A stretch of 64,000 nucleotides of DNA from Halobium salinum (lineage in GTDB: Archaea > Halobacteriota > Halobacteria > Halobacteriales > Haloferacaceae). The stretch is from assembly GCF_026586625.1 (NCBI RefSeq), contig NZ_JAODIW010000004.1, positions 186,001-250,000 of the forward strand. Direction: 5' to 3'. Below the pieces are notes generated by a model that was not told the DNA's origin, made no database searches, and saw nothing but the letters and a program-made list of their open reading frames with translations. A program made the translations under genes and the position numbers. Below are positions 2,665-16,390 of this stretch, piece after piece. Position 1 is the stretch's first letter. Every line of letters begins with the position of its first letter.

Positions 2665-2852
2665 GGCGCGTGCGTCGCGGCGCTCCGTCGCCGCGACACT
2701 CGCGCGAGGGCTGAGCGAACGGAGTGAGCGAAGCGGGTGGGGAGGATGAGGCACAGAGCGTGCCGGCCCGTCGCGGCCGGCTCGCTCTCGCGGGCCTGGT
2801 GGACATGAAAAGGGCGAGCCAGCGCGCGCTCCGGCGCGCTGGCGAGGGCTTT
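2665..2852 (+). repeat. Dispersed GC-rich repeat R1
   Basis: Non-coding block sharing a body plan with R2-R4: GAGGGCTGAG followed by GAACGGAGTGAGCGAAGC, then GGTGGGGAGG, then strong hairpins, ending at GAGGGCTTTC. Internal stems include GTCGCGGCG/CGCCGCGAC (about 2672-2696), CCGGCC/GGCCGG, and AGCGCGC/GCGCGCT with a TCCG-type turn. It abuts the stop codon of the next gene. No credible open frame explains it. Confidence 0.6.
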
Positions 2853-3176
2853 CTACATCTGATACCGACGCTCGTCGTCGCGCTGGGGGTACTGGTCCTG
2901 GCCCGTCATCTCGTCGTAGGTCATCCCCGAGAGGTACTCGTCGTAGGTCACGTCGTAGGCGCCGCGGAGCTGGAAGTCCATGTCGCCGGTGTCGACGGTG
3001 GTGCGGAACAGCTGGTGGACGCCGCGCTGGATCAGCTCCGATACGTCGTCGGTGCCGAAGACGGCGACGAGCATCGCGAGCTCGGTTCGGGTCTCGCGGT
3101 CGAGGTCGAGTTCGACCGGGTCGTCGAGGTTCGAGTACGCCTTCGTCACGTCGTCGTTCAACTCGTCGAGTCCCAT
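2853..3176 (-). CDS. Conserved-looking haloarchaeal protein of unknown function
   Basis: The 107-residue soluble acidic protein (MGLDELNDDVTKAYSNL at the start) has a predicted helical middle region (LAMLVAVFGTDDVSELIQRG). Its C-terminus is rich in Tyr, Asp and Met and ends near YQM. The helix pair around residues 32-58 could be a small DNA- or protein-binding helical domain, but no motif is diagnostic. Codon use is typical of the host. The gene runs opposite to repeat R1, which touches its stop codon, and is followed upstream by a zinc-ribbon membrane protein gene on the same strand. I do not recognise the family. Confidence 0.6.
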   Translation of the reverse strand: MGLDELNDDVTKAYSNLDDPVELDLDRETRTELAMLVAVFGTDDVSELIQRGVHQLFRTTVDTGDMDFQLRGAYDVTYDEYLSGMTYDEMTGQDQYPQRDDERRYQM

Positions 3177-3235: not shown

Positions 3236-3484
3236 TCAGAGGTCGGCGTCACAGTAGGTACACGTCGCGTCGTCGGTCGAGTTCGGAGCCCCACAGGCGG
3301 TGCAGTTCACACGGTCGGTGGGTCCGGTGCTGTGCTGTCGGGTGTAGAGGTGGAAGGCACCCATGCCCGCGGCAGCGACGAGGAGAAACACGGGAAAGGC
3401 GAGCAGCGGACCGAGGCCGACGAACACGACGCCGACGAGGAGGACGGCGGTAGCGACGCCGAGGACGTGGAGGGCCGTGGACAC
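3236..3484 (-). CDS. Small membrane protein with C-terminal zinc ribbon
   Basis: The 82 residues consist of two adjacent hydrophobic helices (about residues 5-45), then a CTAC-X9-CTYC zinc ribbon (CTACGAPNSTDDATCTYC) before a short acidic end. The start is GTG. This architecture is common in archaeal and bacterial small zinc-ribbon proteins, where the ribbon faces the cytoplasm and probably mediates protein contacts. No enzymatic role can be assigned. It lies 59 bases upstream of the 107-residue gene on the same strand, so the two may be co-transcribed. Confidence 0.7.
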   Translation of the reverse strand: MSTALHVLGVATAVLLVGVVFVGLGPLLAFPVFLLVAAAGMGAFHLYTRQHSTGPTDRVNCTACGAPNSTDDATCTYCDADL

Positions 3485-3570: not shown

Positions 3571-3785
3571 CCGGACCGACGAAAGCCCCCGCCCGCTCGC
3601 CGTCGCTCGACTCGCTGCGCGCTTCACCGCTCACTCCGTTCGCGGCTCCAGTGCTTACGTCGCGAGCGACGGCGACCGCCCGGCCCCTTTCGGAGCCCCA
3701 CCCACAGCACCGCACCGCCTCACGCCTCCCCACCCTCCGTGCGGCTGGCACGAGGCCAGCCGAGGTCCCTCGCACGACGCGCCGC
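3571..3785 (-). repeat. Dispersed GC-rich repeat R2 (minus orientation)
   Basis: Read on the minus strand it begins near GTGCGAGGGACC and contains GGGTGGGGAGGCGTGAGGC, GGTGCGGTGC and CCGAAAGGGGCCG. It ends with a GAACGGAGTGAGCGGTGAAGC stretch and GCGGGGGCTTTC. The middle matches R4 almost base for base. It is placed head to head with R3, so their 5' ends meet near 3785. Confidence 0.65.
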
Positions 3786-4070
3786 GACACGGAGTCGCGG
3801 CGGCGCGCGCCGAACGGCCTTCGGGCCGCGAGCCACCGTGCGAGGGCTGAGTGAGCGTAGCGAAGGAAGCGGCTGGGGAGGACGTGGATACGGTAGGCGG
3901 GGCTTCAGAAGGGGCCGTGTCGCCGGAGGCGGAGCTTCCGGCCGCTCGCGAGAGCTTCGTTCTCGCCCAGTTCTCGGGGAAGGACGGCGACGTGAGCACC
4001 GCGGGGAGGAACGGAGTGACGACCGAGGAGCACAGCGAGCCGCGCGACCCGAGAACGTAGGGGCTTCCGG
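3783..4070 (+). repeat. Dispersed GC-rich repeat R3 (plus orientation)
   Basis: Contains GTGCGAGGGCTGAG, GGCTGGGGAGGACGTGG, CGGGGCTTCAGAAGGGGCCG and CACAGCGAGCCGCGCGACC, and ends GGGGCTTCCGGG, in the same order as in R4. Short stems such as GGCC-TTC-GGGCC and CCGGAGGCGGAGCTTCCGG are visible. Frames running through it are Arg/Ser-rich and poorly codon-biased, so I do not call a gene here. With R2 it fills the 680-base gap before mutY. Confidence 0.65.
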
Positions 4071-4164: not shown

Positions 4165-5121
4165 ATGAGCGATTCGCCGTCCGCCGACGCCCTCCCGGAG
4201 TCGCTGCAGGAGAGCACCTTCCCGGAAGGGGACACCCGCGAAGCCGTCCGACGGGCCCTCGTCGACTGGTACGAGGAGGACCACCGGGACTTCCCGTGGC
4301 GCCGCACGCAGGACGCCTACGAGATTCTCGTCTCGGAGGTGATGAGCCAGCAGACGCAACTCGACCGCGTCGTCCCCGCGTGGGAGGACTTCCTCGAACG
4401 CTGGCCGGCCGTCGCCGACCTCGCCGTAGCCGACCGGAGCGACGTGGTCGCGTTCTGGACCGACCACTCGCTCGGGTACAACAACCGCGCGAAGTACCTC
4501 CACGAGGCCGCCCAGCAGGTCGAGGAGGACCACGGCGGCGAGTTCCCCACCGACCCCGACGGCCTCCAGGAGCTGATGGGCGTCGGCCCCTACACCGCGA
4601 ACGCGGTCGCGTCGTTCGCCTTCGACAACGGCGACGCCGTCGTCGACACCAACGTCAAGCGCGTGCTCCACCGCGCCTTCGACGTGCCGGACGACGACGC
4701 GGCGTTCGAGGAAGCCGCCTCCCTCCTGATGCCCGACGGCGAGTCCCGCGTCTGGAACAACGCCGTCATGGAACTCGGCGGCGTCGCCTGCGGGAAATCA
4801 CCCGACTGCGACGGCGCGGGCTGTCCGTGGCGCCGGTGGTGTCACGCCTACGAGACCGGCGACTTCACCGCGCCCGACGTGCCGACACAGCCGGAGTTCG
4901 AGGGCTCGCGCCGACAGATGCGGGGCCGAGTCGTTCGCGCCCTGGGACAGTACGACGAACTCGCGCTGGACGACCTCGGGCCGCGCGTCAGAGTCGACTA
5001 CACGCCCGACGGCGAACACGGCCGCGAGTGGCTCCGGGGACTCGTCGACGACCTCGAATCGGACGGCCTCGTCGCGCTCTCGGAGCGCGAGGCGGAGACG
5101 GTCGCGAGCCTCCGGCGCTGA
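4165..5121 (+). CDS. mutY: A/G-specific adenine DNA glycosylase MutY, short form
   Basis: MutY removes adenine mispaired with 8-oxoguanine. The 318-residue protein has the HhH-GPD fold with SEVMSQQTQ (catalytic Glu58), the helix-hairpin-helix LMGVGPYTANAVASFAF, and VVDTNVKRV with catalytic Asp161. Cys209, Cys215, Cys220 and Cys226 are the expected [4Fe-4S] ligands. The C-terminus (about 245-318) is only about 75 residues. It reads as a small winged-helix-like segment (GREWLRGLVDDLESDGLVAL) rather than the NUDIX-like 8-oxoG-sensing domain of bacterial MutY. It starts with ATG after the R2/R3 repeat block and seems monocistronic. Confidence 0.92.
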   Translation: MSDSPSADALPESLQESTFPEGDTREAVRRALVDWYEEDHRDFPWRRTQDAYEILVSEVMSQQTQLDRVVPAWEDFLERWPAVADLAVADRSDVVAFWTDHSLGYNNRAKYLHEAAQQVEEDHGGEFPTDPDGLQELMGVGPYTANAVASFAFDNGDAVVDTNVKRVLHRAFDVPDDDAAFEEAASLLMPDGESRVWNNAVMELGGVACGKSPDCDGAGCPWRRWCHAYETGDFTAPDVPTQPEFEGSRRQMRGRVVRALGQYDELALDDLGPRVRVDYTPDGEHGREWLRGLVDDLESDGLVALSEREAETVASLRR

Positions 5122-16076: not shown

Positions 16077-16390
16077 GACACGACCACTCGGCGCGCGCTG
16101 GCGGCGCCTTCGGGCGCCGCCTCAGTTCCGCGCGAGGGACCGCGGTCGCCCCGGTGGCGACCGCCCCGAGGCTGGGGAGGCGTGAGGCTGTGCGGTGCGA
16201 GTGGGCGGGACTTCGGAAGGGGCCGGTGGCTCCGGGAAGCACGGCGTTCACGAGAGCGTTGCTCTCGTGGGCCCACGAGAAGCCGGAGGCTTCTCGGGAC
16301 GACGCAAGCACCGAAGTGAGAGAGTGAAGCGACCGAACGAGGCGCACAGCGAGCCGCGCGACCGGAGCCACGGGAGGCTTCCGGGAGTGA
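16077..16390 (+). repeat. Dispersed GC-rich repeat R4
   Basis: The longest copy. It contains GGCGCC-TTCG-GGCGCC, CGCGAGGGACCGC, GGCTGGGGAGGCGTGAGGC, GTGCGGTGC, GACTTCGGAAGGGGCCGG, ACGAGAGCGTTGCTCTCGT (a stem), GCACAGCGAGCCGCGCGACC and GGAGGCTTCCGGG. The central 50 bases match R2 almost exactly, and the last third matches R3. Together with flanking DNA it fills the 460-base gap between the MFS gene and elp3. Confidence 0.7.

Follow-up and report, generated by a model that had tools for sequence, protein, structure and literature searches.

The window analysed here is a stretch of 64,000 nt from a Halobium salinum contig (NZ_JAODIW010000004.1, positions 186,001 to 250,000; 69.5% G+C), and its non-coding DNA contains four related blocks, R1 to R4, some of whose modules are of low complexity (Table 1). 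R2 and R3 lie head-to-head between a zinc-ribbon protein gene, at which the 3′ end of R2 is directed, and a gene for a MutY-like HhH-GPD glycosylase.

Table 1. Elements and neighbouring genes in the window
Feature	Position (nt of the window)	Strand	Description
R1	about 2665-2860	+	Degenerate; class A 5′ module GGCGCGTGCG..CTCGCGCGAGGG..GGTGGGGAGG, GAGGGCTTTC end, no rod core
Zinc-ribbon protein gene	3236-3484	-	Gene start and R2 3′ end 96 nt apart; Pfam match weak, under the cut-off
R2	3579-3810	-	Class A arm; nhmmer 131.7 bits; covariance model 95.3 bits, E=1.8e-15
R2 parts	rod core 3580-3703	-	5′ module, G-rich stretch GGGTGGGGAGGCGTGAGG, rod core
R2/R3 common palindromic centre	3767-3846		CCCTCGCACGA - hairpin - GGCGCGCGCC - hairpin - CGTGCGAGGG
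R3	3803-4070	+	Class A arm plus extra double hairpin; nhmmer 114.3 bits; covariance model 61.9 bits
R3 core	about 3895-4069	+	
MutY-like HhH-GPD glycosylase gene	4165-5121	+	96 nt downstream of the R3 3′ end
R4	16091-16385	+	Single class A element; nhmmer 209.4 bits; covariance model 58.6 bits
R4 core	16203-16383	+	Covariance model
R4 accessory double hairpin	16247-16300	+	Inside the core; TTCACGAGAGCGTTGCTCTCGTG - CCCACGAGAAGCC..GGCTTCTCGGGAC; from the core alignment

A first-pass annotation had recognised the four blocks by their shared, ordered modules, and BLASTN within the window aligns them well beyond short words: R2 and R4 are 80% identical over 98 nt (E=6e-19), R3 and R4 78% over 87 nt (E=1e-10), and R1 and R3 81% over 59 nt (E=3e-9). 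R1, which had been counted as a further copy, has the 5′ module and the end nucleotides, and part of it (2690-2746) is recovered by a whole-genome BLASTN search, but its best core match to the covariance model in the window is only E=1.8; it is a remnant without the rod-shaped core. Besides R2, R3 and R4, the window contains no match to the model at E=0.01. The head-to-head arrangement of R2 and R3 stands, though their 5′ ends do not touch at 3785 as had been proposed. Instead, they have in common the palindrome GGCGCGCGCC at 3802-3811, and their arms overlap by 8 nt (3803-3810). One hairpin lies on either side of the palindrome, and CCCTCGCACGA (3767-3777) can pair with CGTGCGAGGG (3837-3846). 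Elements with the same kind of 5′ part (class A, described below) are often paired head-to-head via a common palindrome, and a centre of the R2/R3 type occurs in at least eight further pairs of the genome, making at least nine with R2/R3.

The four copies first listed are a small part of a family with about 70 members in this genome. R3 and R4 as BLASTN queries each gave about 70 matches at about 57 places in the 4.46-Mb genome, and a covariance model derived from 13 compact cores of natural copies found 71 at E<=0.01, with E-values down to 1e-21. Searching other haloarchaea with such a model, a step the first-pass annotation had suggested, showed that 24 of 40 relatives, which belong to several taxonomic families, carry the repeat, with up to 83 copies at E<=0.001, while many of the 40 had no match at that threshold. 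When named genomes were scanned for a DNA pattern and the hits then put to the model, 91 matches emerged in loci of haloarchaea and their relatives, including Halorussus, Salinarchaeum, Halomarina, Halonotius, Halosegnis, Haladaptatus, Halorarius, Halomicrococcus and other genera. Among 35 bacterial loci that fitted the DNA pattern by chance, none passed the model. All eight genomes tested from genus g13 carry between 32 and 123 copies, and across related genomes the number ranges from 0 to 123. Plasmid copies occur in Halobaculum, Natrinema, Salinigranum and Halorubrum, with no annotated feature beneath them. No Rfam family, including SRP, RNase P, group I/II intron and HEARO, matched at gathering level, and E-value mode gave no relevant match. 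A phage origin was rejected, as phage records gave no BLASTN match to the element and six viral contigs matching the DNA pattern failed the model. A literature search, with thin coverage of subscription journals, found no published description; as far as the literature shows, the family is widespread in haloarchaea and previously unreported.

The core covers 127 positions of the covariance model, with the consensus GGGTGGGACTTCGGAAGGGGCC[GGNNNNCTGGAC]GAAGCACGGCGACGCAAGCACCGCAGG..GAGCGAGCGAAGCGAGCGAC..CGAGGAGCGCAGCGAGCCGCGCGA[GTCCAGNNNNCC]GGGGGCTTCCG. In the fold, the outer stem (CGRAAG/CTTYCG) leads through a symmetric internal loop, GGG/GGG, into a variable, covarying stem about 12 bp long; beyond it lies a long inner rod whose internal loops are rich in G.A mismatches and which closes at GGGGCTTYCG. 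The loop sequences AAGCACCG/GGAGCGCAGCGA are conserved, and the tracts GGG, GGG, GGGG and GGGGG (model positions 1-7 and 17-20, and the 3′ GGGGG) are nearly invariant; they might conceivably form a G-quadruplex in place of the outer stem. Many copies, among them R4 and, in a different form, R3, have an extra double hairpin at a single fixed internal site of the core, and inserts like that of R4 recur at the same position in many copies of the core alignment. Two classes of 5′ part precede the core. Class A, whose predicted RNA would start at GGTGGCGCG, has hairpins around GGCGCGCGCC, then CGTGCGAGGG and GGCTGGGGAGGNGTGAGG, with a 5′ P1/P2 stem, a hairpin P3 and the stretch GAGGCTGGGGAGGNGTGAGG as additions; class B has GCGACTCACCGAGC..GACGACCGGCCGAACANCCGGC.

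Some cores are rearranged. At C2:637172-637296 (L007) and C13:299700-299866 (L044), the inner hairpin sits in reverse orientation between the two covarying stem arms, as though recombination between these arms had flipped it. At C11:1203529-1203877 (L004), at least five short perfect hairpins are chained inside the core, with linkers such as GACATCAC and GTTAGCAG, resembling stepwise hairpin insertion. The 5′-side consensus of the core, GTGGGACTGAAAG, is superficially similar to the 3′ end of CRISPR repeats in haloarchaea, GTGGGATTGAAAG; this is probably a coincidence because the AAAG is paired in the element.

The compensatory stem changes that the first-pass annotation had proposed looking for are plentiful. 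Across the 91 copies, 27 of the 32 pairs show two-sided changes, 549 in all against 132 in shuffles, and 95.6% of cells are paired against 72.6 in shuffles, a value somewhat inflated by the fitting of this alignment to the model. Pairing falls to 30-45% when the partner is slid by 1-3 columns, and none of 500 shuffles reached the observed covariation values in either the 91-copy set or the same-site set. An independent MAFFT alignment of 13 copies has two-sided changes in 18 of the 32 pairs, and copies from 15 species at one orthologous intergenic site are 98.1% paired, with two-sided changes in 19 of the 32; these same-site copies and the slid structures control for kinship in part only. A protein-coding reading is implausible given the mixed hairpins, indels and covariation.

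The variation also depends on the strand. Among all cells there are 130 G-U and 18 A-C combinations, and in the 49 copies less than 80% identical there are 69 and 12; counted by column in these 49 copies thinned to 80%, there are 16 and 4 (p=0.012). This excess of G-U over A-C indicates that one strand acts single-stranded. Drift had been expected mostly in hairpin loops, and the opposite was found: the stems change most, with compensation, and conservation is higher in unpaired than in paired columns (entropy 0.79 versus 0.97). Same-site copies changed at 108 of 891 paired and 53 of 839 unpaired column positions, that is, twice as often where paired. Covariation, wobble bias and loop conservation are together what is expected from selection on a folded single strand, and we infer that the selection acts on RNA rather than on single-stranded DNA. 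Two-sided swaps are also present between same-site copies that differ by only 2-7%. Those at 3% divergence arise faster than stepwise mutation would predict and may partly reflect gene conversion or template switching.

In genus g13, 19 of 28 independent copies of class A have a TATA-type motif within a 37-nt window immediately upstream of GGTGGCGCGYGCC, compared with 2.7% of random windows from the same loci. In archaea, the TATA box precedes the transcription start by about 25 nt, and this spacing, together with the position of the motif, makes initiation at the 5′ end of the g13 class A element likely. In the H. salinum genome, there is no TATA box in the common centre of head-to-head class A pairs. 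At the other end, copies frequently have a 3′ tail, about 55 nt long, that terminates in CTTATAAGCGAGC. Tandem duplicates of the tail unit, GGCTGGGGCTTTGG..CTTATAAGCGAGC (about 57 bp), occur at L314, L315, L316, L318, L326, L329, L340 and other loci, and the tandem units are nearly identical within some of them.

The element occupies intergenic DNA, and in the other loci no called gene overlaps any of the 91 copies. With genes called ab initio, H. salinum copies between co-directional genes share the gene orientation 25 to 7, and the 3′ end of the core typically precedes the next start codon by about 100 nt (96 nt for R2 and R3). Single copies in other genomes show a weak bias (17 to 13), and a universal co-orientation with the downstream gene was therefore rejected; because of this weakness and the ab initio gene calls, the bias is recorded here and not built upon. 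A role as a 3′ UTR was also rejected, convergent contexts being rare in H. salinum (6, against 14 divergent). No common class of downstream gene was found.

Evidence for mobility is clearest in six recent class B copies, which have the common ends GGTCGTGTTTAGTTAAG (left) and CTCAACTACACATCGCC, an imperfect copy, on the right. The left terminal inverted repeat (TIR), 17 bp long, is identical to the end of IS6-family elements in the H. salinum genome. Five of the six copies are flanked by 8-bp target site duplications (TSDs) and the sixth by none: TTCCAAGG, TCGGTCGA and GACGGACC are perfect as found by script, GGCGTCCG/GGCGCCCG has one mismatch, and CGAACGTA was taken from the alignment. From these IS6-type ends and 8-bp duplications, IS6 transposase can probably mobilise recent class B copies in trans. 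Several of the IS6-family elements of the genome (L061-L071) have in-frame stops or are fragmented, and none of the IS6 loci examined contains the core.

Sharp shared ends, which the first-pass annotation had named as a sign that would favour selection on structure, are shown only for the recent class B subfamily, and R1-R4, like most copies, gave no recognisable TIR or TSD in our scan. IS6 TIRs on old copies were rejected, the scan remaining at background level outside the recent subfamily apart from an isolated right-end match at C13:896133. Either old copies have lost their ends to decay while retaining the core, or most copies were mobilised by a different route. In other genera, class B or paired elements at L092, L084, L087, L201 and L163 are flanked by TIR-like GTGTTCAGATAAGC / GCTTATCTGAACAC, which suggests that other transposons were used. 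Site occupancy, a comparison also put forward in the first-pass annotation, does differ between species: one site compared in 44 species of g13 is variously occupied, empty, left with a core-deleted element or host to other inserts. The empty alleles at this site are too diverged to set class A ends or a target duplication, and precise empty/occupied junctions for class A were unobtainable. Around the mutY matches of 26 other genomes, no element lies within 1.5 kb. Two species, at L074 and L304, have the element and its 5′ flank in common, and their homology ends at the element 3′ end (position about 1497), which suggests a rearrangement breakpoint at the element.

We consider it probable, on balance, that these are haloarchaea-wide non-autonomous mobile elements with a structured-RNA cargo. 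The structured, single-stranded nucleic acid that they contain or encode is most likely RNA, and the best-supported description is that recent class B behaves like a miniature inverted-repeat transposable element (MITE) and class A is built like a structured RNA gene. The first-pass annotation had offered a mobile element or a structured RNA, and both halves hold, the second through covariation and the first through TIRs, TSDs and site occupancy; its expectation for loops failed. The conserved part would fold on one strand, beginning with the G-rich 5′ part. Since most g13 class A copies start just past a TATA box, they are probably transcribed from their own promoter, giving a predicted RNA of about 300 nt. 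The youngest class B copies, bounded by IS6-type TIRs, would be acted on in trans by IS6 transposase, and head-to-head fused pairs such as R2/R3 have a palindromic centre in common. Some observations go against this interpretation: the inverted interiors of two copies would wreck a strand-specific RNA there, a TATA box is missing from the centre of head-to-head pairs, two-sided changes already occur between same-site copies that differ by 3%, and most copies, R1-R4 among them, have neither a recognisable TIR nor a TSD.

The strongest competitor, though in our judgement an unlikely one, is a palindromic MITE or cruciform acting at the DNA level, in which template switching and gene conversion keep stems perfect and no RNA function exists. 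It would account for the two-sided swaps at only 2-7% difference, the near-perfect accessory hairpins, the interior inversions and head-to-head palindromes, and the IS6 TIRs and TSDs of recent copies. However, repair of a DNA palindrome predicts equal numbers of G.T and A.C mismatches, and the ratio observed is 69:12; the greater conservation of unpaired positions (in entropy and in same-site changes) and a TATA box at a nearly fixed upstream place in g13 also speak against it. Somewhat less probable again is a host-domesticated regulatory RNA or insulator upstream of promoters, acting in cis (or trans), with mobility secondary. The co-orientation and the 3′ ends about 100 nt before start codons in H. 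salinum are in its favour, as are the intergenic position of all 91 copies and the retention of structure after insertion at one orthologous site; yet the orientation bias is weak elsewhere, the element is missing beside all 26 mutY matches from other genomes, copy number varies from 0 to 123 among related genomes, and no common class of downstream gene was seen.

The remaining explanations seem very improbable. Dispersed hairpins with conserved ends recall, in outline, REPs and PATEs, and hence an IS200/IS605-type derivative: a TnpB omegaRNA, a PATE, or a REP/RAYT-like element moved by a Y1 transposase. Nevertheless, the best core match within about 1.5 kb of the H. salinum tnpB genes has E=0.6, and the omegaRNA was rejected on that basis; Y1_Tnp is missing from H. 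salinum and six other many-copy genomes, which led us to reject REP/BIME with RAYT and Y1/PATE, and is present in all six zero-copy genomes tested. The TIRs and 8-bp TSDs of recent copies are also foreign to IS605. An archaeal SINE, a reverse-transcribed RNA possibly derived from SRP RNA, as Alu is, would fit the RNA-like structure, the 5′ TATA-like promoter, the tandem 3′ tails and the variable copy number, and GCGGTGGCGCGTGCC presumably resembles the start of human 7SL RNA. Reverse transcription was rejected for present-day genomes since an RVT_1 search, positive in three control genomes, found the domain in none of 21, even those richest in the element (up to 123 copies), and an SRP/Alu origin was rejected since similarity to the cellular SRP RNA of the same genomes is at the level of shuffled sequences, with no Rfam SRP match. 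Chance similarity of G+C-rich intergenic DNA, which the 69.5% G+C of the window and the low-complexity modules might suggest, is hardly credible beside E-values to 1e-21, the failure of all 35 bacterial loci and the collapse of pairing in the slid and shuffled controls.

Several known systems share features with the proposed mobile elements with RNA cargo. ERIC/IRU, BOX and RU-1 to RU-3 are structured dispersed repeats of bacteria, and like them the haloarchaeal elements are non-coding, intergenic, 100-300 bp long, present in many copies, rich in hairpins and probably non-autonomous and mobile. Unlike them, the family is archaeal and has a rod core covarying across many haloarchaeal genera, a strand-biased wobble, a promoter signal of TATA type and, in one subfamily, IS6 TIRs; to our knowledge, no sequence relation between the two is known or expected. 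The RU elements have been described as bacterial dispersed repeats (PMC2759123). In Haloquadratum walsbyi, the part of the published account drawn on here describes MITEs, PATEs and SMRs as mobile repeats without a transposase, the PATEs being IS605-related and devoid of TIRs and target duplications (PMC3119063). The MITEs of that account share TIRs and TSDs with their parent transposon, as recent class B does with IS6; a conserved covarying RNA core does not figure in this part of the account (PMC3119063). The likeness to the IS6/IS26 family (PMC6807381; NF033587) lies in the 17-bp left end GGTCGTGTTTAGTTAAG and the 8-bp target duplication; in contrast to IS6/IS26, the element has no transposase, and most copies lack IS6 ends. 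A halite metatranscriptome contained 22 expressed intergenic ncRNAs from several Halobacteria genomes, with no function assigned (PMC7002113). The comparison of these sRNAs with the element is by description only, and repeats are not discussed in the part of that study used here (PMC7002113).

A further reading, which we put forward tentatively, is that the elements are promoter-bearing mobile RNA genes of about 300 nt whose product acts in trans on their own mobility or on the host. They would then form a previously unrecognised archaeal class and, as tentatively, an archaeal functional parallel of SINEs that needs no reverse transcription. A covarying, strand-specific family with tens to more than 100 copies per genome would rank among the most abundant structured non-coding families of archaea. 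If it is transcribed, the question becomes what an archaeal genome does with about 100 copies of one folded RNA; if it acts only as DNA, it would offer a clean natural system in which palindrome repair mimics RNA covariation. Either way, the finding affects structured-RNA discovery, the annotation of MITEs and the analysis of haloarchaeal intergenic regions.
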